Assembly: GCA_903889425.1 (NCBI GenBank)
Contig: CAISXI010000233.1
Span: forward strand, 1-33,754
DNA from: an uncultured Roseiflexaceae bacterium
GTDB taxonomy: Bacteria; Chloroflexota; Chloroflexia; Chloroflexales; Roseiflexaceae
Direction: 5' to 3'
Length of the DNA stretch: 33,754 bases
Shown here one piece after another: positions 5,054-19,390 of the stretch; position 1 is the stretch's first letter; the number at the start of each line of letters is the position of its first letter. Below the pieces are notes generated by a model. That model saw only the letters and a program-made list of their open reading frames with translations, did not search any database and had not been told where the DNA came from. Position numbers and translations under genes: made by a program.

Positions 5054-5081
5054 ATGACAATGATTAGTAATAACTTATGAT
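5054..5081 (+). promoter_or_regulatory. putative SigA-type promoter ATGACA-N16-TATGAT
   Basis: Hexamers at 5054-5059 and 5076-5081 lie about 29 nt before the ATG at 5110, which has a GAGGA-type ribosome-binding site. Confidence 0.4.
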
Positions 5082-5109
5082 AGGCATTAGGAAGAGCGAG
5101 GAACATCAT

Positions 5110-7524
5110 ATGCAACACTTTATACTTAGAATTTGTAGTTTACTGTTGATTATTTCATCGTTTGGGATTATCAAACCCCAAACTGCACATGCGGCAAGTG
5201 ACTTGACGAGACGTACATTGTGCCGACTAAATACGAGTTTAGTCGTGTGGGGCGGTGGTTCTGCGATTCACCCCAATGGCCTAATGTACGTTGCCAAAAG
5301 TATTTCGCCGTATAGTACGCTTTCAAGCAAATCATACATCGCAATATTTGCAATTGATCCCGAATCTGCTGGTACAGTAGATAATTCGGGTTCACAAACA
5401 TGTAATGTGGTCGGCGTATACAACGATACATCAGACAACTATACGCGGTATTCAGCACTTTTGAACCCATCTGTACTGGCCAGTGATTCGCAAGGAAATT
5501 TGTACGCGGGTAGAGGTTCGGCACGTGCTTACCGGATACTTTACATCCCTGCGTCAGCAACTGTATCTGCACCATTCGCAGGATTAGTAACAAAAAGCGT
5601 CATTTATGATGTGACCAAAGACTCATACACTTATTCAGCCCTCGGCGTAACCGATGATTATGCAGTCGTTAGCATGTCTGGGTGGAATGCCGGAGAATCA
5701 TTTGACGTACGGTATGGGATTGTACCAACAGAAACAATAAAAGGCAGTGGACCACTAGTTATCAATACTGTCTCATGGCAATCTTTAGGGTCAGGGAACG
5801 GCGCATTGGATTCATTTGTTGGTATGCCGAATGGGAAATTCTTTCTATCGGCAAACCTTGTCAGAAGCGGTACGTTTGTTATTGCTGCGGCATTTTTAAA
5901 TCCCTCCACGAGAGCCTTAACCAATGCATTTAATCCGGCATTAAGTGGGGTAGGGCTTGTAGATTGTCGCCCAGCATCAGGACTTACGTTTACCTCAATT
6001 TATGGGTGTTCGGCACCATCTGCCGCAATGGGAGCAGACGACAATTTATATTTTACCGCCCATTTGATTGAACGCAGTGGCCCTAGACGTGCGAACGTTG
6101 CGTGGCGCTACAATATCGCGACAAACGAATGGAAAGGGCTCGGAAATTTAGCAAAACCAACATTAATTACCCCGCTCAACGATCTCGAAGCGTATGGTGG
6201 CACGGAAATCACCGCCGATGCCGATGGCAATGTGGTGGCAGCAATGAATGGCGAATTCGGCATTAAAACCACAAAACTTGCATTGTTATACAATGGCGTT
6301 TGGTCAGTGGGGAATCCAAATTATACATCACCTGCATTTGGACGACCAAACGTCGAACTAATTACCGTTGATGGTGACCCACGTGTTAGTTTCATTTATG
6401 TAATCATGGGTGGAACTTCAAATTCGATGTGGTGGGCCACCTATAGTGCACCACTCAATGTGGTGTCATCACGTTGTAAAGCCAATGTCGTCGTTGAAGG
6501 TAGTGCATATTTTGTCAAAAATTCAAGTGTATCCGGAACCATTTATACAGCCGCTACATGTAATGCAACACGGTATGTCGCCGTTGCATCAAACAGCGCA
6601 ACACCGCCTGCAACACCGAACTCAAGTGATATCAAAACATTTTCAAAAGACAATGGTAATTTTTCAGTCAGTGGACTAGTATCAGGAATAAATTATATCC
6701 ATGTACGAATGTACGATTCAAGTGGCCCACTCGAGAGCTGGGTGACGAATAGCGTATATGTTGATACAAACAGCACAGTCGAAGCGACCGTAGCCCTCAA
6801 TAACGGCAACAACATTCCTAATTACAAAGATTCGTGGAACATGCGGGCTGCATCATACACGGACAGCGGATACACACGAAGTGCAATAGGTTCATTAAAT
6901 ATCACAGGAGTTACCGATCCATCGGGATTGGCATCATATGCGATTAATGATCAACCAGCCGTTGCATTTGATTCAAACAATATTAACCAACCAATACCGG
7001 TGAATTTCAATAGCATTACGAGCACCGTTGGGATTTCGTTGACACTGACCGATGGTGCCGGCAATACCGAAATCCGGGGAATTCGCCCACTGACGTATGA
7101 TGTCGAACCACCGAGTATTTCAGTTGACCCAACTCCCACGTTCACCGCCACAACAGGCGTATTTAGTGGCACAATTGGGCTGACCGGTGGTACGATTACT
7201 GACGACCTTTATGCTGCGAGTGGTCGCCAATATTGGGGCGTTTGGGTAGCCAATGCCAAGTGTGTAGGTGATGTAGTGGGCGGATGTCCTACTGCTACCG
7301 ACAGTCAACTCCGCTGGGGTGCAGTGCCAGTTAGCGATCCCACATCCATACCTTGGAATTTACTCCACGGTGTAAATCAAGCACCAAGCAGTGGATTGTA
7401 CCGTACCTATATCCGTGTGTTGGATGGTGCAGGGAATGCCAGTACCACAGCGGTAACAGTCGACACTACCGTCACCATGACCGAAACCAAGATATACATG
7501 CCGCTCAACTTTAGCCAACGGTAG
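5110..7524 (+). CDS. secreted protein of unknown function with Ig-like/cadherin-like segments near the C-terminus
   Basis: Start at M12 of the supplied ORF gives a clear signal peptide (MQHFILRICSLLLIISSFGIIKPQTAHAA). Segments such as 'ITGVTDPSGLASYAINDQP', 'LTDGAGNTEIRGIRPLTYDVEPPSISVDPTPTF' and 'LDGAGNASTTAVTVDT' resemble bacterial Ig-like modules. C-terminus is TKIYMPLNFSQR. Confidence 0.75.
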   Translation: MQHFILRICSLLLIISSFGIIKPQTAHAASDLTRRTLCRLNTSLVVWGGGSAIHPNGLMYVAKSISPYSTLSSKSYIAIFAIDPESAGTVDNSGSQTCNVVGVYNDTSDNYTRYSALLNPSVLASDSQGNLYAGRGSARAYRILYIPASATVSAPFAGLVTKSVIYDVTKDSYTYSALGVTDDYAVVSMSGWNAGESFDVRYGIVPTETIKGSGPLVINTVSWQSLGSGNGALDSFVGMPNGKFFLSANLVRSGTFVIAAAFLNPSTRALTNAFNPALSGVGLVDCRPASGLTFTSIYGCSAPSAAMGADDNLYFTAHLIERSGPRRANVAWRYNIATNEWKGLGNLAKPTLITPLNDLEAYGGTEITADADGNVVAAMNGEFGIKTTKLALLYNGVWSVGNPNYTSPAFGRPNVELITVDGDPRVSFIYVIMGGTSNSMWWATYSAPLNVVSSRCKANVVVEGSAYFVKNSSVSGTIYTAATCNATRYVAVASNSATPPATPNSSDIKTFSKDNGNFSVSGLVSGINYIHVRMYDSSGPLESWVTNSVYVDTNSTVEATVALNNGNNIPNYKDSWNMRAASYTDSGYTRSAIGSLNITGVTDPSGLASYAINDQPAVAFDSNNINQPIPVNFNSITSTVGISLTLTDGAGNTEIRGIRPLTYDVEPPSISVDPTPTFTATTGVFSGTIGLTGGTITDDLYAASGRQYWGVWVANAKCVGDVVGGCPTATDSQLRWGAVPVSDPTSIPWNLLHGVNQAPSSGLYRTYIRVLDGAGNASTTAVTVDTTVTMTETKIYMPLNFSQR

Positions 7525-9163: not shown

Positions 9164-9202
9164 GCAAACCCACTGCGACATTAAGCGTCACAGTGGGTTT
9201 GC
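9164..9202. terminator. 12-bp perfect inverted repeat, possible shared terminator
   Basis: GCAAACCCACTG (9164-9175) and CAGTGGGTTTGC (9191-9202) are exact reverse complements. They sit just after the tRNA and overlap the last codons and stop of the minus-strand ORF. No strong T tract. Confidence 0.45.
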
Positions 9203-10185
9203 CATTGTACTAGTGCGTGTTGCATGCCAGTCAGCGCATCGCTGAGCACCATGCGCACGTCACGACAAGCAGCCGCGATTAAATCGCCCTCGGCATGGCT
9301 CAGCGCACGTGGTGGAGTCGTGAGCGGAAATTGGGTAGCAACAATATCAAGAAAAAACTGCGCATCCACAAATGCGTCAGCAGCCTGTAGCAGTATCTGC
9401 GTACCTGTCGCTGCTGGATGAAGCGGCGCCCAATGCTGCAATAGCTGTTGGGCCGCCCCACAGCGTTGCCGCAAATCACGCATGATGGTTGCTACATGCG
9501 TCGACACCAATGCCAGTGGCGCCGCATGGTCAGCAGCGAGCGCCATCACTTCGAACGCCCCCAAGCCAACATGCCATGCTTGGTCGTCGCGTAAGGGGTG
9601 CTTTGGGGTGTCAAACCGCACAATCGTCTGTGTGCCTAATGACGTACATGCCTGAGCCAATGGTGCATACGACGGCATTGGCGCGACGGGCAGCGGAGTG
9701 AGCACAGCAATGTCAATACCACCACGACTATAGAGTGCGGAATATGCCAGTGACTGCAAACGCCCATCGACATACTGAATCGTCAGCGTTGTATCGGTAT
9801 ATGTACTCAATATGCCATATTCGGGGCCAGCAACACCCCATATAACGACCACACCAACAATTGGATTCACGAGGAATTCAGCGAGGTCCTGGGGCGTGCG
9901 AAACCAGTGCTGGGTCACGGCAATCCCACACGCCGCCCAGCACGTGGCATCCAACTGGCGCAACGCATGTAAGGCAGGCACCGCGGGAATTTGCAGGCGG
10001 GGGTGGCAATGAATCGTGGCAGGATCGAACCACGATTCCGCAGCCACATACACAAATGGTATACCGCTGGCCGCATAGACATCCTGCCAGGCACACGCGG
10101 GACGTACGGTTTGGGCAGCGGACCACAATGATGTCAGCCAACTATTCACCGCCGGAGCTGCACTATTTTTTTCACCCATAAACAC
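9181..10185 (-). CDS. protein of unknown function, possibly C39/BtrH-like papain-type fold
   Basis: 334-aa ORF whose GTG start overlaps the upstream TAG (TAGTG). Central 'IVGVVVIWGVAGPEYGILSTYTDTTLTIQYVDG' resembles the PVIxWGxxxPEFGLIxGYD segment I associate with C39/BtrH-like proteins. Function not assigned. Confidence 0.6.
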   Translation of the reverse strand: MFMGEKNSAAPAVNSWLTSLWSAAQTVRPACAWQDVYAASGIPFVYVAAESWFDPATIHCHPRLQIPAVPALHALRQLDATCWAACGIAVTQHWFRTPQDLAEFLVNPIVGVVVIWGVAGPEYGILSTYTDTTLTIQYVDGRLQSLAYSALYSRGGIDIAVLTPLPVAPMPSYAPLAQACTSLGTQTIVRFDTPKHPLRDDQAWHVGLGAFEVMALAADHAAPLALVSTHVATIMRDLRQRCGAAQQLLQHWAPLHPAATGTQILLQAADAFVDAQFFLDIVATQFPLTTPPRALSHAEGDLIAAACRDVRMVLSDALTGMQHALVQWQTHCDA

Positions 10186-11279
10186 TAGCTCCGCTTACCG
10201 CGGGCGACTACCTGAATGGGAATGCAGTCACCATCGCGCGCTTGGAGATAGAGGACATCAGACAAATTCACGGTGGTACAGACATGAATGGGGCGCATGG
10301 CGATGCGGGTGCCGATCGGCAAATCAACGCCGGGGGCCAATTGCAACACGCCGTGTTCTTCGGACATACGCACCAACGTGGCGGCATAATCGACGGCAGT
10401 GGCATAACCAAGCAAACCCATCCGATCAGGGACGACATCCCCAGAGAACGTTTTGGCGCCGGCATCAATCGTGGCCGTTTGGGCATCGGGGCGACTAATC
10501 ACCGTACACCAAATCGATAGCCCCACTTGGTCGACAGTACAGGCGCCGTTGCGCAACTGCATGTCGTCGCCAAATACATACGTGCCGGGCCGGATTTCGG
10601 TGATGCCGGGCACACACACCGCCCCTGCCCCAGCTGGGGTTGAGCCGACGCTGATGGCATTGATGGCGATACCACTGGTGCGCAAATCATTGGCCACTGC
10701 CACCATCATTTGGGATTCTTCGATACCCAAATCATACCCAGAGCGCCCATTGGCGCCAGCAAACCAGGCACCACGATAGGTGAAAATCCCGTCGAGTGCT
10801 AATCTCGGCGCTGCCAACACGGCGCGGCACAATTCGGCGGCAGCGGCGGGGGCGACACCACAGCGATGCAAGCCCGTATCGATTTCGACGCGCACCCCAA
10901 TGGTAGCACCGGCAGCCTGCATGGCAGCGGATAATTGCGCAATCCCTACCAATGAATCAACACCCACAATCAAGTGGCAACGCAGGGCCAGTTGGGCTGC
11001 ATGGGCACATTTATCAGCACCGATGATCGGGTAAGCCACAAAGCAATCGCTGAATCCGGCGTCGATAAAGACTTCGGCCTCGCTCAATTTGGCCGAGGTA
11101 ATCCCGTGTGCCCCTGCGGCAATTTGCATGCGGGCGATTTCGAGACTTTTGTGGGTTTTGATGTGCGGACGTAACGCCACGTCGTACTGATTGGCGAGCG
11201 CTTGCCAGCGCTCAATATTGGCACGCACACGCCCTTCATCGATGATTAATGCGGGGGTAGAGATAGTAGCGAGATTCAT
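10185..11279 (-). CDS. D-threonine aldolase / D-serine dehydratase-like PLP enzyme (alanine racemase fold-III)
   Basis: 'TPALIIDEGRVRANIERWQALANQYDVALRPHIKTHKSLEIARMQIAAGAHGITSAKLSEAEVF' (PLP lysine in HIKTHK) and C-terminal 'MRPIHVCTTVNLSDVLYL' with an HxC metal-site pattern. Confidence 0.88.
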   Translation of the reverse strand: MNLATISTPALIIDEGRVRANIERWQALANQYDVALRPHIKTHKSLEIARMQIAAGAHGITSAKLSEAEVFIDAGFSDCFVAYPIIGADKCAHAAQLALRCHLIVGVDSLVGIAQLSAAMQAAGATIGVRVEIDTGLHRCGVAPAAAAELCRAVLAAPRLALDGIFTYRGAWFAGANGRSGYDLGIEESQMMVAVANDLRTSGIAINAISVGSTPAGAGAVCVPGITEIRPGTYVFGDDMQLRNGACTVDQVGLSIWCTVISRPDAQTATIDAGAKTFSGDVVPDRMGLLGYATAVDYAATLVRMSEEHGVLQLAPGVDLPIGTRIAMRPIHVCTTVNLSDVLYLQARDGDCIPIQVVARGKRS

Positions 11280-11288
11280 ACATTGCTC

Positions 11289-12029
11289 CTATTGCATCAC
11301 CATGCCACCACACACATTGATGGCTTGACCATGCACAAAACTAGCTTGTTCACTCAATAAAAACTGTACCATAGCGGCGACTTCGTTGACGGCGCCACTG
11401 CGTCCCATGGGGACGCGGGCGAGGCGTTGTTGCCAAATCGAGGCAGCATCTTGGGAGTCGTCAACGAGTGCCGCGGTCACGACAGATTGCATGGGGGTAT
11501 CAATCACGCCCGGACAAACACAATTGACGCGGATGCCTGCAGTGGCCACCGTATGGGCGAACGTTTTGGTCATGGCAATCACCGCCGCCTTACTGATATT
11601 GTAGATGGGATGCATGACAGTCGTGGCTGTTTTGCCTGCAGTAGAGGCAAGCAACACCACGCTGCCTGATTGCCACGGCATCATGGCTTGGAGGACAGCA
11701 CTTGTCAAAAACCACGTTGCCTTGGCATTCACCCCCATCACCGCATCCCAATGCACTTCGTCCACAGCAAAGGGATGCGCCACCCGCATAATCCCAGCCG
11801 CATTGACCAAGCCGGCAATTTGGGGGGCGATGTGGTGCGCAGCCGCACAAATCTGGGTGGGGGCAGTTGTCGCACTTACATCGATTTGGAACGGATGCAA
11901 CGTGGGCGCATGCCAGGGAATCTCATCACGATCGACGCCTAGTACGGTGACGCCAGCCGCACACAATGATTGGGCGCAGGCCGCCCCGATCCCACTCGCC
12001 ACACCAGTTACAATCGTTATGGTAGCCAT
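11289..12029 (-). CDS. SDR-family NAD(P)-dependent oxidoreductase
   Basis: 'TGVASGIGAACAQSL' Rossmann motif, 'NAAGIMR', 'YNISKAAV' catalytic YxxxK, 'CVCPGVIDTPM', C-terminal 'VHGQAINVCGGMVMQ'. GGAG ribosome-binding site supports the ATG at 12029. Confidence 0.92.
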   Translation of the reverse strand: MATITIVTGVASGIGAACAQSLCAAGVTVLGVDRDEIPWHAPTLHPFQIDVSATTAPTQICAAAHHIAPQIAGLVNAAGIMRVAHPFAVDEVHWDAVMGVNAKATWFLTSAVLQAMMPWQSGSVVLLASTAGKTATTVMHPIYNISKAAVIAMTKTFAHTVATAGIRVNCVCPGVIDTPMQSVVTAALVDDSQDAASIWQQRLARVPMGRSGAVNEVAAMVQFLLSEQASFVHGQAINVCGGMVMQ

Positions 12030-12055
12030 ATTTTGCTCCAATGTATGGTTTCACA

Positions 12056-12847
12056 TTATTGTGGCGTGGATGCCCCATCTGCACGCAATATGCCATCGTG
12101 ACAGGGAATTTCTACATCACCAAAAGGATGCAACCCACCAACCCAGCGCTGTAACGCAGCGACCCAGTACGGATGCCGGCGTAAATTGGTCAATTGCATG
12201 AATTGCCGGATGCGTTGCTGGCTCCAGTGTGGCGCAAGTGTGAAATCAGTCGCCTGTGGCAATGGCGCATAACTCCCCTGCGGCGGTTGTTGGTACCCCG
12301 TAGGAATCGACGCTGATATCGCCAGCCAATGCGTGGCAGCTAGCAGCGCATGCACGCGAATCAAATCAGCTTCACTTGCGCAACGGGTTATGTCAATTGA
12401 TTGCTGAGCGACAATCGGGCCGGTATCGAACTGTGCATCCATTTGGTGAATGGTGATACCAGCTGGCGCATCACCGCGCGCCACATAGAACAACGGGTCA
12501 GGACCACGTAAATCGGGTAACAATGACGGATGGATATTCCAGATTGGGGCATGAGCCAACACACGCGCAGGCACCCGGCGCGGGAAGCAGGCAGTCACGA
12601 GTGGCTCACCAGCCGGAATTTGGGACAATAAATCGTCCCAGTGTGCCATATAAAATACGGGGATGCCATGCGACGACGCTAATTCGGCCACACTTGTCGC
12701 CATAATCGTCTGGTGTGGTCGTGGTGCTTGGAGCCAGCTCGCACGCCCCGCAGGTGCCGGCAAAATCAGTAGTTGGGCGGGGGTGTGTTGCCATACCTGC
12801 TGAAGAAAGCGGTAACTAAAAAGACATTCCATTGCCAAACAACGCAT
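12056..12847 (-). CDS. formyltransferase-family protein (methionyl-tRNA formyltransferase / GART-like)
   Basis: 'IWNIHPSLLPDLRGPDPLFYVARGDAPAGITIHQMDAQFDTGPIVAQQSIDI' is the catalytic N-H-D formyltransferase pattern. AAGGGA before the ATG at 12847 (alternative 12856); the 13075 start of the ORF track is too long. Confidence 0.88.
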   Translation of the reverse strand: MRCLAMECLFSYRFLQQVWQHTPAQLLILPAPAGRASWLQAPRPHQTIMATSVAELASSHGIPVFYMAHWDDLLSQIPAGEPLVTACFPRRVPARVLAHAPIWNIHPSLLPDLRGPDPLFYVARGDAPAGITIHQMDAQFDTGPIVAQQSIDITRCASEADLIRVHALLAATHWLAISASIPTGYQQPPQGSYAPLPQATDFTLAPHWSQQRIRQFMQLTNLRRHPYWVAALQRWVGGLHPFGDVEIPCHDGILRADGASTPQ

Positions 12848-12939
12848 GCTATTCATTCCCTTATTGGCGTACCGTGCTATGATACACCAATGTGATTTAC
12901 AACAATTCAACGTTGTTTCTTCAATCCAGGAGGCATGTA

Positions 12940-13482
12940 ATGAGCGAGCCAACCGTACACTGTGCATATTTTGACAAAGAATTACCGGCGCTGACGAAGC
13001 CACCACTCCCCGGCGCATTGGGCGCACGTATCCAAGCGACGATTTCGCAGCCCGCCTGGCAGGCTTGGCTTGCAATTGAAAAATTACTCATCAAACATTT
13101 TGAGTTTGACCCCAATGATCCAACCTTTATGCGCCAACGGGCGACTGCGGTCCAAGAATTCTTTTTTGGACCACCACCAGGTGAACGGATGGTCGTCTGT
13201 AGCAAATTTGGTCGCGAATTGCCTGGGATAGCAAACCTACCATTCCCCGGCGCACTCGGACAACGGATTTACGCAAATGTATCGCAACGGGCATGGGCCA
13301 TGTGGCCCGAACAAGAGCGGATTTTGATTAATCATTACGGCATGAGTTTGGTTGATCCGCAATCACAAAAAGTCTTGTTGCAATCCATGGAAGAGTTCTT
13401 TTTTGGGGAAGGGGCACAACTCCCGGAAGGGTGGGCGCCACCCCAACAAGCCGCCCCGAGCAAAGGCGGTCCACGCAAATAA
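12940..13482 (+). CDS. tandem-domain Fe(2+)-trafficking protein-like (two YggX-like domains)
   Basis: AGGAGG ribosome-binding site before the ATG at 12940. Two in-protein copies: 'VHCAYFDKELPALTKPPLPGALGARIQATISQPAWQAWLAIEKLLIKHFEFDPNDPTFMRQRATAVQEFFFG' and 'VVCSKFGRELPGIANLPFPGALGQRIYANVSQRAWAMWPEQERILINHYGMSLVDPQSQKVLLQSMEEFFFG', both matching the YggX PGxLGxRIYxxxSxxAWxxWxxxQxxLIN pattern and its N-terminal Cys. Confidence 0.88.
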   Translation: MSEPTVHCAYFDKELPALTKPPLPGALGARIQATISQPAWQAWLAIEKLLIKHFEFDPNDPTFMRQRATAVQEFFFGPPPGERMVVCSKFGRELPGIANLPFPGALGQRIYANVSQRAWAMWPEQERILINHYGMSLVDPQSQKVLLQSMEEFFFGEGAQLPEGWAPPQQAAPSKGGPRK

Positions 13483-13511
13483 CAGCCGCCATCAAAATAT
13501 CGAGTCAACCA

Positions 13512-13550
13512 CGTATCTTGGCGCGCGTAAATGCGTCAAGATACGTTTTT
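13512..13550 (+). terminator. Rho-independent terminator after the YggX-like gene
   Basis: CGTATCTTGGCGC - GCGTAAAT - GCGTCAAGATACG (13-bp stem with one G:T) followed by TTTTT. Confidence 0.75.
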
Positions 13551-13601
13551 ATGTGGCTATTTTTGGCCAAAAACAGTCTGGTACGCGAATTAACTGCGTC
13601 A

Positions 13602-14840
13602 GGCAATTAATTGGATATCGGGGTTGATTTGAATGCGTAACAAGGCATGTGCATCACGCAAGGCTTGTTCGACCGCGGCAGGGTCTTGGCCACGAGCAAA
13701 AATAAACCCGAGGTAGCTTTCACCCTCCGGCAACGTCACGATCGGCTGGTGGAGCGGGCTGGTAATTTCGATTGATTCTATCAATGGCACCGTCAAGGCA
13801 GATTCAACACCATTTACCTGGTGCAAAATACCACTGGTGGGAATTGGAATCATCATCACTCCGCCTGCTTCAAGGCGGCGCGTGGGCGTAGTCGCAAGCA
13901 AGCCACTGGCTTGGCGCACAATCAACATTTCGAGCGACTCATCACTGCCAAAGCGGAGCGTTTGCGAGCAGAGGCCGCCGATCGACCGCCCGGCAATTTC
14001 GACAATATAAATCCCATCATTGTTGATGCGTAATTCGGCATGCACGGGACCATTGATTAATCCAATGGCTAGGGCAGATTTTTGGGTAATTGTATATATT
14101 GTGTGTTGCGTTGCATCAGGCAGGCGGGACGGGGTGACATAGATTGTTTCTTCAAAAAAGGGACCATCGAGGGGGTCGGGTTTGTCAAACAAGGCCAACG
14201 GAATCAACACCCCGTTGTCCATCATCGCCTCAAGGGCCACTTCATTGCCTGGAATAAATGATTCAATCAAAAATTCATATTCGGTGTGGTGCGGGTACAA
14301 CGTCGCCAACATACGGAGTAACCGGGTGTGCGCAATCACCAACTGCGCAGGAGTATCAGCACGCATCACACCACGACTGCCATTGAGTTCGAGTGGTTTG
14401 ATGACACACGGGTATGGTACGACCGCAGTGATACGCGCAATATCATCACTACTAACAAAACGGCGAAACCACGGCAGGGGAATATCGCTCGTTTGTAATG
14501 CCAAACGCATCGCGTATTTGTTACGGGCAGCCTCGGTAGCGATGGCAGAATTGTGGGGCAACCCTAAGTCACTGGCAATCTGCTGGGCAATATGGGCGCC
14601 ACTATCATCGAGCGCCATGCACGACACGAATGGGTGTTGTTGATGGCGACTTGTAAGTGCAGAAATCAAGGCAGGGTAATCATTAGAGTTGTAGACTACA
14701 CTGCTATTGGCATATTCGGCGATTACTGCCGTATCACACAACAATAACCAATCCATCGAGAGCGCTTGGGCTGCCCGAATAAAGGCATGATTGCGATACG
14801 ATGATGACGTCGACACAAACAAGATGCATGGGGTAGTCAT
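13602..14840 (-). CDS. ATP-grasp domain protein, L-amino-acid-ligase-like
   Basis: Start at M57 of the supplied ORF (MTTPCILFVSTSSSYRNHAFIRAAQAL...). 'ARNKYAMRLALQTSDIPLPWFRRF', 'YPCVIKPLELNGSRGVMRADT', 'EFLIESFIPGNEVALEAMM', 'GPVHAELRINNDGIYIVEIAGRSIGG' form the ATP-grasp core, with a C-terminal LAL_C2-like region. The end may extend to 13599 depending on stop-codon counting. Confidence 0.85.
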
Positions 14841-17800
14841 GGGTACATCCTTTTCCAGATGACCGGAGTAGGGAAGCGTTTTTTGATTAAGGTGGCAGTA
14901 GGACGCACGGTACGGGTAATGCGCAACGTTGCACTTGGCGCAAGTGGCGGCAACGTCGGGATGGTGGTGGGGATTTGAATCGGCAGCGAAGCCACCCGCA
15001 TTTCCCATAATTGTTGTACCATCACCGGCGTATTGCGATCCGGGTTAGCGATTACGCCAAGGAGATTTGCGGGATTCTCCCCCCAGCACCAAAGTTCAGT
15101 GTTTTCGAGGATTGCACAGGTACGATTTCCCCCTGCAGCGATTGTTGTTACTGATTGCAAATCAGGTACCGTCGTCAATCTGAACGGAGTGGTTACCGCA
15201 GGATCAGGTGCCACCCCAATTTGCCCATGGGCATTATTACCCCAACATTGTACCGTGCGTTTGGATGAAAGCACGCACGTATGCGCACTCCCAGCAGTCA
15301 CTGCAACTGCGTCATACACACCATCTACTTGCTGCGCATTCACAATTTCGGTTCCTACGATACCGAGTTGACCATTTTGATTACTACCCCAACAAATCAG
15401 ACGTTGGTCTTTTTGCACGGCACACGTATGATTGTCACCGGCAGTTAGGGTGGTCACACCCCGGACACCAGGGACTTCTTGGGGAATGGTGCTCATTTCT
15501 GTACCTGCATAGCCCAGCTGGTATTGGTTATTGCGGCCCCAACAGGTAACGGTACCACTTTCAAGTAACGCACAGACATGTTGGGCACCAACCACCACAT
15601 CGATGGCAGTTGTGACCCCAGAAATAGGCGTTGGCGTAGTCCGGAACTCACCGATACCAACGGGTTCTGAGGCGATTTGACCATACTGATTATCGCCCCA
15701 ACAATAGATTTGCCCTGCCACAATCGCACAGCTTTGGTCACCACCGACGGCAAATGCGGTCACACCCACAAAATTACCTACAAAATAGGGGACTGGGCTA
15801 TCTGCTAAATCACCGCTAAACGAATTCCCTAATTGTCCAGTGGTATTACGACCCCAACAATTCAGGTCGTTCGTAACCAACAAGGCACAGGTATGATTTG
15901 CGCCCGTGGTGACGGCAATGGTATTTGCCGCAGCATCGACCTCACTCGGCAACGTACGCGTACTGCTGCCTATTTGGCTACCAATACCGAGTTGACCAAA
16001 CCCGTTGTCACCCCAACACCAGACGGTGCCTTGGTTATCGGTCATACAGATATGATTCGCACCCACACCAACAGCCGTCACACCCAAATGACCGACGACG
16101 GGTTGGGGTGCCACAATATCCTGGGCAGCACCACCCGCACCATTGCCCACTTGACCGACATTATTCCAACCCCAGCAGGTCACATCACCACGTTGGAGTA
16201 ATGCGCAGGTATGGGCGCCACCGGCAGCAATCGCCACCACATTACGCACACCGGTAACCAGCGCCGCCGTAGGGGAAGTCGCAGCGTCACCGACCACCGT
16301 ACTGACGCCGAGCTGTCCGCTGTAGTTATCGCCCCAGCAACGCATATCACCGCTGCGTTGGAGTACGCAAGTATGATTGTCACCGGCAGTAATCGCTACC
16401 ACATTCGCCACATCGGCAACCAATTGAGGGCGCGTGATATAGGCAGTATCACCCACAGCACCCATACCCACTTGGCTATAACGATTCCAGCCCCAACAGT
16501 AGACTTGGCCATTTTGGATTAGGGCACAGGAATGATCAAGGCCCAAACTAATAGTGGTAACGCCACTTAACCCTGGTACAGGGGTCGGGATAGATAATCC
16601 AGGGCCAACATCACCGATGCCCAATTGCCCTTGTTGATTACGCCCCCAACAAACGACTTTGGTTGATTGTAATACTGCACACGTGTGATTACCTCCTGAT
16701 TTCAATACAACTGCCGTCGCCAAATCAGCGACACGCAACGGCATACCCGATGAGGCAGTGCTCCCACTTCCCAATTGACCATCATCATTCCGGCCCCAAC
16801 AGGCACCACCACCGTCTTGGAGTAATGCACAGCTATGTGATTGCCCGAGCGAGAGATCGACTGTTTGTTGGACTGCGGCAATCACCGGAGTACTACTGTC
16901 TTCGGTGGCTTGATTCCCTAATTGACCGTAATTATTATGCCCCCAACAACGTACGGTACCATCACTTACAATCAAGCAGGCATGGGCATTACCCGCTGCA
17001 ATGGTGACAGCTTCGTCATTACTTCGGACGGTTTGTGGCAGAGCTGCGGTATTTGTCGTGCCATCGCCAATTTGACCATAGTCATTACCACCCCAACAAC
17101 GCACGATAACCTGCGTGAGGAGCGTACAACTGAAATCTCCCCCTGCGGCTATCGCAAACCCATCATTTAAGCCCTTTACATAGGGCTGTGACGCGTCATA
17201 TTCATACACACCGTTGCCTAATTGACCATAACTTGCATCACCCCAACAACTAGTTTGACCGATTTGGAGTCGGGCGCAGGTGGTCGTAAAGCCTAAGGCT
17301 ACATGCGAGACGTCGCTCAACACGATTTGTGGTGGCAAAACAATTGAATCGTCGCCTGTTGCGCTGACTTGATTGCGATCATTTGCCCCCCAACACCACA
17401 ATTGGCGCATTGCATCAATACCACACGTATGGCGTCCCCCCGTGGCAATCGATTGCAGGGGGGGTAATCCTGCAACTATTTGCGGAGTAGTCGTAGTTTG
17501 ATTGGGTGCCCCAAACGACTGCTTCCCCCAACAAAGTACGGCACCGTCGATACGCAACGCACAGGCATGCTGCCAGCCAATTTTGACATCGACGACATCG
17601 ACTAAATTTGCAATCGGCGTAAACGCGGGTGTATTGGGGAGCAATGGTGCCCCCCAACAAACTACGGTTGCATCGTTTTGGAGGGCACAATTACTGTCAC
17701 CACCAGATGCAATGGCAACAACCGAGGGGAGGGCTGCAATCGCTGTTGGGAGCGATTGAGCTGGGCCAACACTACCTAATTGCCCGACGTTATTTGCCCC

Positions 17801-19390
17801 CCAACACCACACCTGGCCTGATTGTTGCAACGCACAGGTATGATGTGCGCCGGCACTCAACGTCGCGGCACGCGTAAGCGTCCAAATTTGCGAAGGCTGG
17901 TCATGATTTTGAAAATCAGCCACGCCCAATTGTCCAAATTCATTGGCACCCCAACAATATATTTGTTGGTCATACCGCACCACACAGGTATGTTGGGCAC
18001 CGGCCACTACACTCAGCACACCATCAATATCTGGCGGTGCCGGATTCGGTTGATCACGTTGGAACGCAGTACCGAGTTGGCCTTCAAGGTTCCTACCCCA
18101 ACACTGGAGCCGGCCTTGTTGCCACAAGGCACACATATGCGCAACCCCACCAGCCAATACATCAACAGTTACGCCTAGGTGCATCAACACAAATTCTGAT
18201 TTTGTTTTTTCGGTAATAGTCGCCCCTAATTGCCCATATTGATTATCGCCACGACAGACGATTTTGGCAGCACGCAACAATACACACGTACTGTTATCGG
18301 TGGTAGTCACATCAAGTGCACCAAATAATGGAGTTTGGACAATTTGGGTGTTTTGATTAGTCATACATCCCAAATTATCATTCGCGAGCACCGCACACAA
18401 TACCGAAGTATTACTGCCACGGATGCGTACAATTGCGGATGGAAACTGAATTTGCTGGGGCAAAGCGCCATTCCCCCAACACCACAAACTCCCATTAGAA
18501 TCAAGCGCACAGCTTTGTTGGGCAGTCAACACGATTGCATTGGCAACGGGGATGCCTGCAATTAATACGGGGGTGACAATCGAATTACCCGCATTTCCAT
18601 CAACTTGACCAACGGTATTTTCACCCCAACACCAAACTGCGCCAGCTGCAGTCAAGGCACAATTATGATTCCCGCCCGCAGCAATCGCTGTCACATCGCT
18701 CGGTAAATCGTTGATTGGATGGGCATCGATGGCACGTTGACGGGTATCGTCACCAATCTGTGCGCGGCGATTATCGCCCCAACAACGTACACCACCATCA
18801 TCTTGGCGGGCACAGGTATGATTGGCACCACTGACAATTTGTACGACACGCGCGAGCCCTACGACTTGTTGTGGTACTGATTGATTGGTTTGTGGGCCAT
18901 TACTGGTATTTCCTAATTGGCCAAATTGATTCCCACCCCAACAATAGACTCGGCCAATCCGCATTTGCAATGCACACGAATGCGTATCACCGAGGGCAAT
19001 TGCACTTACATCAACCAGCCCACTCACATTCATTGGATTAGGATTCATAGCGAGCGCGTTCCCATCGCTACCACTACCTAATTGCCCTTGACGATTATCA
19101 CCCCAGCACCTGACGAGCGCAGATTGGGTAACCACACAGATATGCCCTGTCCCACTCGCTATTGTATGAAGCTGCGTTGATTGAATCAGCACGGGTTCAT
19201 CGTCTGGCAAGGCTGGCATTGGGATTATTTCTTCTCGTTGGGTTGTAATCGGCGCAACAACCGGCTTGCCACGTTGCTGCACCCGTTCAACGACCTGCAC
19301 CACCACCGTCGACAGCGGCGCGGCAATCATCCCTATCACAAATAGCGTCATGACGCTATACCAAATCGGTAACAAAACACGGTTTATCAT
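14837..19390 (-). CDS. membrane-anchored or exported giant RCC1-repeat protein
   Basis: 1517 aa; N-terminal hydrophobic segment (MINRVLLPIWYSVMTLFVIGMIAAPLSTVVV); repeated 'GxxHTCALxxxGxVxCWGxNxxGQLG' units; Thr/Pro-rich C-terminus. Confidence 0.93.
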   Translation of the reverse strand: MINRVLLPIWYSVMTLFVIGMIAAPLSTVVVQVVERVQQRGKPVVAPITTQREEIIPMPALPDDEPVLIQSTQLHTIASGTGHICVVTQSALVRCWGDNRQGQLGSGSDGNALAMNPNPMNVSGLVDVSAIALGDTHSCALQMRIGRVYCWGGNQFGQLGNTSNGPQTNQSVPQQVVGLARVVQIVSGANHTCARQDDGGVRCWGDNRRAQIGDDTRQRAIDAHPINDLPSDVTAIAAGGNHNCALTAAGAVWCWGENTVGQVDGNAGNSIVTPVLIAGIPVANAIVLTAQQSCALDSNGSLWCWGNGALPQQIQFPSAIVRIRGSNTSVLCAVLANDNLGCMTNQNTQIVQTPLFGALDVTTTDNSTCVLLRAAKIVCRGDNQYGQLGATITEKTKSEFVLMHLGVTVDVLAGGVAHMCALWQQGRLQCWGRNLEGQLGTAFQRDQPNPAPPDIDGVLSVVAGAQHTCVVRYDQQIYCWGANEFGQLGVADFQNHDQPSQIWTLTRAATLSAGAHHTCALQQSGQVWCWGANNVGQLGSVGPAQSLPTAIAALPSVVAIASGGDSNCALQNDATVVCWGAPLLPNTPAFTPIANLVDVVDVKIGWQHACALRIDGAVLCWGKQSFGAPNQTTTTPQIVAGLPPLQSIATGGRHTCGIDAMRQLWCWGANDRNQVSATGDDSIVLPPQIVLSDVSHVALGFTTTCARLQIGQTSCWGDASYGQLGNGVYEYDASQPYVKGLNDGFAIAAGGDFSCTLLTQVIVRCWGGNDYGQIGDGTTNTAALPQTVRSNDEAVTIAAGNAHACLIVSDGTVRCWGHNNYGQLGNQATEDSSTPVIAAVQQTVDLSLGQSHSCALLQDGGGACWGRNDDGQLGSGSTASSGMPLRVADLATAVVLKSGGNHTCAVLQSTKVVCWGRNQQGQLGIGDVGPGLSIPTPVPGLSGVTTISLGLDHSCALIQNGQVYCWGWNRYSQVGMGAVGDTAYITRPQLVADVANVVAITAGDNHTCVLQRSGDMRCWGDNYSGQLGVSTVVGDAATSPTAALVTGVRNVVAIAAGGAHTCALLQRGDVTCWGWNNVGQVGNGAGGAAQDIVAPQPVVGHLGVTAVGVGANHICMTDNQGTVWCWGDNGFGQLGIGSQIGSSTRTLPSEVDAAANTIAVTTGANHTCALLVTNDLNCWGRNTTGQLGNSFSGDLADSPVPYFVGNFVGVTAFAVGGDQSCAIVAGQIYCWGDNQYGQIASEPVGIGEFRTTPTPISGVTTAIDVVVGAQHVCALLESGTVTCWGRNNQYQLGYAGTEMSTIPQEVPGVRGVTTLTAGDNHTCAVQKDQRLICWGSNQNGQLGIVGTEIVNAQQVDGVYDAVAVTAGSAHTCVLSSKRTVQCWGNNAHGQIGVAPDPAVTTPFRLTTVPDLQSVTTIAAGGNRTCAILENTELWCWGENPANLLGVIANPDRNTPVMVQQLWEMRVASLPIQIPTTIPTLPPLAPSATLRITRTVRPTATLIKKRFPTPVIWKRMYP
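15056..19168 (-). repeat. 28 tandem RCC1-like coding repeats (~45-55 aa each)
   Basis: Hand segmentation of the translated protein gives 28 C-x(~9)-C(W/R)G-type units. Unit 6 is degenerate but keeps both cysteines. Confidence 0.85.

Follow-up and report, generated by a model that had tools for sequence, protein, structure and literature searches.

An RCC1-repeat protein with 28 cysteine-paired units in a freshwater relative of Roseiflexus, probably arranged as four seven-bladed propellers

An uncultured freshwater bacterium of the Roseiflexaceae, a relative of Roseiflexus, encodes a protein of 1517 aa (ATG start) that contains 28 RCC1 units, 27 of which are clear matches to a profile of its own blades and one of which is degenerate. 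Judging from the sequences of this protein and of its relatives, we consider it probable (about 0.8) that these units make up four seven-bladed propellers. The gene is located on the minus strand of contig CAISXI010000233.1, the 33,754 nucleotides of which were analysed as a whole and are referred to below as the window (Table 1). The best explanation, which we regard as likely, is a membrane-anchored, disulfide-stapled rod. The protein would be exported and would stay attached to the cell membrane through its N-terminus. Its extracytoplasmic chain would consist of four consecutive propellers (units 1-7, 8-14, 15-21 and 22-28) following each other without visible linkers, with a short Thr/Pro-rich tail at the end. 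A disulfide would staple the second to the third strand of each blade, through cysteines at the HTC and CWG positions.

Repeat units, cysteine pairs and predicted export

Membership of the RCC1 repeat family is evident from tandem repeats scoring above the curated Pfam cut-offs: PF25390 was matched with 831 bits (cut-off 150), PF13540 with 612 bits over 22 stretches (cut-off 22) and PF00415 with 542 bits over 17 stretches (cut-off 21.7). RCC1-type families were the only ones found by Pfam in the protein, and no NCBIfam family matched it. An HMM of the blade, built from the protein's own CWG-anchored units, recognised 27 units with E-values from 2e-12 to 3e-20. The remaining one, unit 6 (residues 319-355, between units 5 and 7), is degenerate and stayed below the threshold here, and was weakly matched at the equivalent place in the orthologs of G003, G008, G009 and G010; units 5 and 6 are both short, with intervals of 38 and 37. 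The total is thus 28, the figure given in the initial annotation after segmentation by hand, which is upheld by the blade profile and with which the 28 cysteine pairs agree. Both ends of the protein are also as described there, with a hydrophobic stretch at about residues 8-33 and a Thr/Pro-rich tail, in which the motif PTxTLI(R/K) is kept in every ortholog that reaches the C-terminus.

All 56 cysteines of the protein reside within the units, one pair per unit and none outside. Within a pair, one cysteine belongs to HTC and the other to CWG, at a distance of 9 to 11 residues and mostly as C(X9)C. Of the other orthologs with an alignment along their length, six likewise have exactly 56 cysteines and the most distant one, that of G003, has 58; the pattern of one pair per unit is retained in full-length orthologs of 43-84% identity across the genus. 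Among 893 distinct blades of other RCC1 proteins, 828 had both cysteines, 52 neither and 13 were discordant, and in at least nine of the 13 both cysteines are present with a longer loop between them; as this set was mostly found with a cysteine-containing query, the cysteine-free share is not representative, while the pairing is. This all-or-none pattern argues strongly for a disulfide between neighbouring strands in each blade and, with the hydrophobic N-terminus, equally strongly for export and an extracellular location of the protein, which is probably anchored at the surface.

Table 1. Features of the RCC1 gene and its downstream neighbour in the window (ring boundaries are counted, not observed)
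Feature	Position	Strand	Basis
RCC1-repeat protein, 28 units, 1517 aa	14837..19390	-	Pfam, blade HMM, cysteine pairs
N-terminal hydrophobic anchor or signal region (putative), residues 1-40	19271..19390	-	sequence; helix 2-23 in low-confidence model
Putative propeller 1, units 1-7, residues 72-406	18173..19177	-	counting in sevens
Degenerate unit 6, residues 319-355; Cys pair 332/342 retained, other motif lost	18326..18436	-	HMM, cysteines
Putative propeller 2, units 8-14, residues 407-741	17168..18172	-	counting in sevens
Putative propeller 3, units 15-21, residues 742-1101	16088..17167	-	counting in sevens
Conserved patch, units 15-18, residues 742-941	16568..17167	-	ortholog identity
Putative propeller 4, units 22-28, residues 1102-1465	14996..16087	-	counting in sevens
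Thr/Pro-rich C-terminal tail, residues 1466-1517	14840..14995	-	sequence
ATP-grasp ligase (PF13535 + LAL_C2)	13599..14840	-	Pfam; sequence

Conservation and distribution within the genus

A search of ten other genomes of the genus detected the ortholog in each of them, as a complete gene, as a copy truncated at a contig end or as one broken by a gap in the assembly. Eight of these orthologs, aligned along their length, show identities of 40-84%, differ in unit spacing by no more than 3 residues, and all keep the number of 28 units and all 28 CWG-type cysteines. In near ortholog pairs dN/dS amounted to 0.07-0.09, with high dS and some values near saturation. Because of the complete cysteine conservation, the near-constant spacing and this dN/dS, the 28-unit pattern is not a product of chance. 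No full-length match was found elsewhere among 60 relatives or 300 genomes of the phylum searched, and RCC1 proteins of other Chloroflexota match the protein in part.

The closest named records are the Roseiflexaceae MAGs L040 and L041, along with L039 (CALQBW020000016.1), which is filed as Singulisphaera and carries a full-length ortholog of 76% identity. It should be added that the L039 contig is the same as that of genus member G008; the Singulisphaera label of this public MAG is probably wrong.

Conservation is distributed unevenly along the chain. Identity between the three ortholog clades was 0.34 for units 1-7, 0.43 for units 8-14, 0.60 for units 15-21 and 0.48 for units 22-28, so that putative propeller 1 is the fastest evolving and putative propeller 3 the most conserved. 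Unit 14 has an identity of 0.40, and the values then jump, with loops counted, to 0.66 (unit 15), 0.73 (unit 16), 0.82 (unit 17) and 0.60 (unit 18); this step at unit 15 coincides with a predicted ring boundary.

Groups of seven and the arrangement of propellers

RCC1 structures are seven-bladed beta-propellers, and 28 units, as counted from the sequence, are compatible with closed rings of seven. We considered 66 non-redundant RCC1 proteins with at least six units from many phyla, a set that leaves aside the ortholog group of the 28-unit protein; 54 of them had exactly 7, 14, 21 or 28 units, the sole 28 being most likely L097, with units of 39 residues. At a chance rate of 1/7 this corresponds to p ~1e-34, a value made too small by relatedness of the proteins. 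L020 (15 units) and L024 (8 units) are exceptions to the sevens, both with near-identical repeats, as is expected for recent amplification (PMC9218822).

The rule of sevens was tested on a fresh sample of 20 RCC1 proteins fetched afterwards, of which 15 gave 7 or 14 matches and five gave 8 or 15. These five, and one protein of 14 matches with a missed unit, have only strands C-D at the start and only strands A-B at the end. Proteins with 8 or 15 matches were consequently rejected as exceptions: their first and last parts make up a single blade, and with such closing blades taken into account the whole sample of 20 conforms to multiples of seven. In this split-blade class the closing blade is divided such that C-D lie at the N-terminus and A-B at the C-terminus. 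The first blade was whole in 85/89 cysteine-paired proteins and split in 8/9 cysteine-free ones, in counts uncorrected for relatedness, and it is the split blade of L045 that lacks both cysteines. Furthermore, L135, L136, L139, L144 and L147 were observed to be cysteine-free, with half a blade (C-D) first and the other half (A-B) last. We tentatively suggest that exported bacterial RCC1 propellers close in two styles, by cysteine-stapled whole blades or by a cysteine-free split blade, and that the 28-unit protein may represent the stapled kind in a large form without linkers. Such a rule is not universal, because UVR8 is cysteine-free with an apparently whole first repeat.

Groups of seven are directly visible in several paralogues from the same genus. 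L094 (G002:C41), an ORF of 2661 aa that is cut off by the end of the contig, has 42 cysteine-paired units at intervals of about 50-61, enlarged to 95-105 after units 7, 14, 21, 28 and 35, and is, as read from these intervals, predicted to hold at least six propellers in one chain. L105 (G001:C60) and L104 (G005:C65) have 21 units each, with a Thr-rich linker behind unit 7 and another behind unit 14; units i, i+7 and i+14 of L105 look alike, which points to duplication of a whole propeller. L095 comprises two proteins of 14 units with a single long interval after unit 7. All of these share with the 28-unit protein the cysteine-paired blades, the sevens, a hydrophobic N-terminus and Thr-rich segments, but have clear linkers between the sevens, whereas none is visible in the 28-unit protein. 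A second class, with shorter units, is represented by the L097 protein (L097:6027 onward, G052:C113), in which 28 cysteine-paired units of about 39 aa within 2282 aa fall into two sets of 14, with repeats of other kinds after them. It should also be added that the genome under study (G000) has about fifteen further contigs with ORFs of RCC1 repeats, several of them cut by contig ends (among them C509, C361, C485, C352, C513, C527, C207 and C436), which is an unusually large set for 3.6 Mb.

Within the 28-unit protein itself, similarity between units showed no excess at period 7 (p = 0.48), so that it does not resemble a series of copied propellers. Position-specific profiles of the blade, trained on proteins of 7 and 14 units, had no power to tell the phase in held-out 7-unit proteins. 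AlphaFold2 was run on residues 1-1200 and 345-1517, the latter deliberately started one blade out of phase as a test of encoded phase, each with an alignment of five rows of close sequences only, from four genomes. Mean pLDDT was 50.3 and 47.5, respectively, and pTM 0.37; strands were visible in each unit, and at that low confidence there was no trustworthy closed ring. AlphaFold also failed on a chain of 47 blades studied by Pereira and Lupas (PMC9218822). The best Foldseek matches of these low-confidence models were RCC1-type propellers (UVR8, RPGR and HERC2), with globally poor fits to single propellers (rmsd of about 8 A or worse).

The proposal of the initial annotation that 28 stands for four complete propellers of seven has thus gained strong, if indirect, support from the quantisation in relatives and from the paralogue linkers, while a closed ring was not recovered in the models. 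The same lack of a confident ring, together with the short units 5 and 6, would suit a different partition of the blades, for example into rings of 6, 7 and 8 or with blades outside rings, the product of four and seven then being a coincidence; mixed rings have been reported elsewhere, 15 WD40 blades having been modelled as 7+8 (PMC9218822). We find this quite improbable in view of the sevens within the RCC1 family, the linkers after every seventh unit in paralogues of the genus, the conservation step at unit 15 and the retention of 28 units in all orthologs, all of which favour four propellers of seven.

Possible role and relation to known systems

Our best guess for the function, though we would put it at somewhat less than even, is that the chain acts as a surface binding rod. 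The conservation peak at units 15-18, where neighbouring blades would form one face, suggests this face for the main ligand, and it may hold a candidate binding site. The conserved site would accordingly sit on propeller 3, chiefly on the face of blades 15-18, and the remaining propellers would serve as a stem or as faster-changing contact surfaces.

A lone, strongly conserved patch on one propeller would also suit one dedicated target, as in a secreted or surface inhibitor resembling BLIP-II, in which one face blocks a foreign enzyme and the rest is scaffold. BLIP-II is indeed a secreted bacterial propeller of RCC1 type, and the resemblance to it is one of sequence similarity (E 3e-10), but it is a single small propeller (PDB chains of 273-287 residues), as opposed to four with an N-terminal anchor here, and no target gene adjoins the RCC1 gene; we therefore regard an inhibitor as improbable. 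A structural component of wall or sheath that binds nothing seems unlikely too, albeit a little less so: a long stapled rod with a Thr/Pro-rich end and the many RCC1 proteins in one genome would be in keeping with it, but a purely structural rod has no need for one propeller far more conserved than the others. The neighbouring genes raise yet another explanation, that the protein is functionally tied to them, for instance by receiving or carrying a small peptide product at the surface in conjunction with an oligopeptide ABC transporter. The start codon of the ATP-grasp gene overlaps the RCC1 stop codon (ATGA) in the window, with identical spacing in near relatives, so that both genes are probably translationally coupled here; the ligase carries LAL_C2, and the neighbourhood is kept across the genus. 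Genes for a formyltransferase, an SDR and a D-amino-acid enzyme follow, and an oligopeptide-type ABC transporter is encoded divergently upstream. In the second clade, however, the RCC1 and ATP-grasp genes are about 200 bases apart, and at the G003 locus no match to the ATP-grasp gene was found beside the RCC1 gene. Since synteny in the genus extends over the entire region, proximity says little and the neighbourhood is weak evidence for a shared function, which makes this link as doubtful as the inhibitor; the binding rod remains our preferred reading.

Apart from this, positions 9181-14840 (-) of the window constitute a possible operon of the ATP-grasp ligase (LAL_C2), formyltransferase, SDR, a D-amino-acid aldolase/dehydratase-like protein and an unknown 334-aa protein, the products of which may synthesise a dipeptide or a small derivative of an amino acid. 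Further along, a protein of 815 aa (5077-7524, +) adjoins a PMT-like mannosyltransferase and is conserved in several genomes of the genus, with zero matches in Pfam or NCBIfam.

The nearest known systems belong to the RCC1/BLIP-II lineage (RCC1, UVR8, RPGR, HERC RLDs and BLIP-II), with which the protein shares the motif, a unit of about 50 residues and the best sequence and fold matches, differing by its 28 units per chain and its probable export. The aligned units of UVR8 have no cysteine pair, in contrast to every blade here. In the ectodomain of plant CRINKLY4 (ACR4), likewise an extracellular RCC1-type propeller with regularly spaced cysteines and matched by sequence (7a0j), a disulfide per repeat has been proposed on the basis of the motif C(X10)CWG (PMC4617170). 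A cysteine pair per repeat is found in all 28 units of our protein, mostly as C(X9)CWG; CRINKLY4 has seven repeats, each of about 39 aa, where our protein has 28 of about 50 aa, and its receptor kinase and TNFR-Cys domains are absent from the 1517-aa protein, in which Pfam found RCC1-type families only. Pereira and Lupas (2022) placed RCC1/BLIP-II among the amplified propeller lineages (PMC9218822), and their multi-propeller chains also have many blades; in contrast to those, the blades here are diverged, not recently amplified, and their number is fixed at 28 across the genus.

The fold and the chaining of propellers are already known, and the fixed, fully cysteine-paired architecture of 28 blades is a striking example of them. 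It offers a naturally diverged chain of RCC1 units, four propellers by our reading, with 28 blades genus-wide, beside paralogues in which modules of seven units are visible and the blades number 7 to 42, so that the statement "RCC1 rings close at seven" becomes directly testable in sequence. Moreover, a disulfide in each blade, as proposed for CRINKLY4, suggests a common stabilisation of RCC1 propellers outside the cell, and the conserved patch of units 15-18 is a place to seek a ligand.
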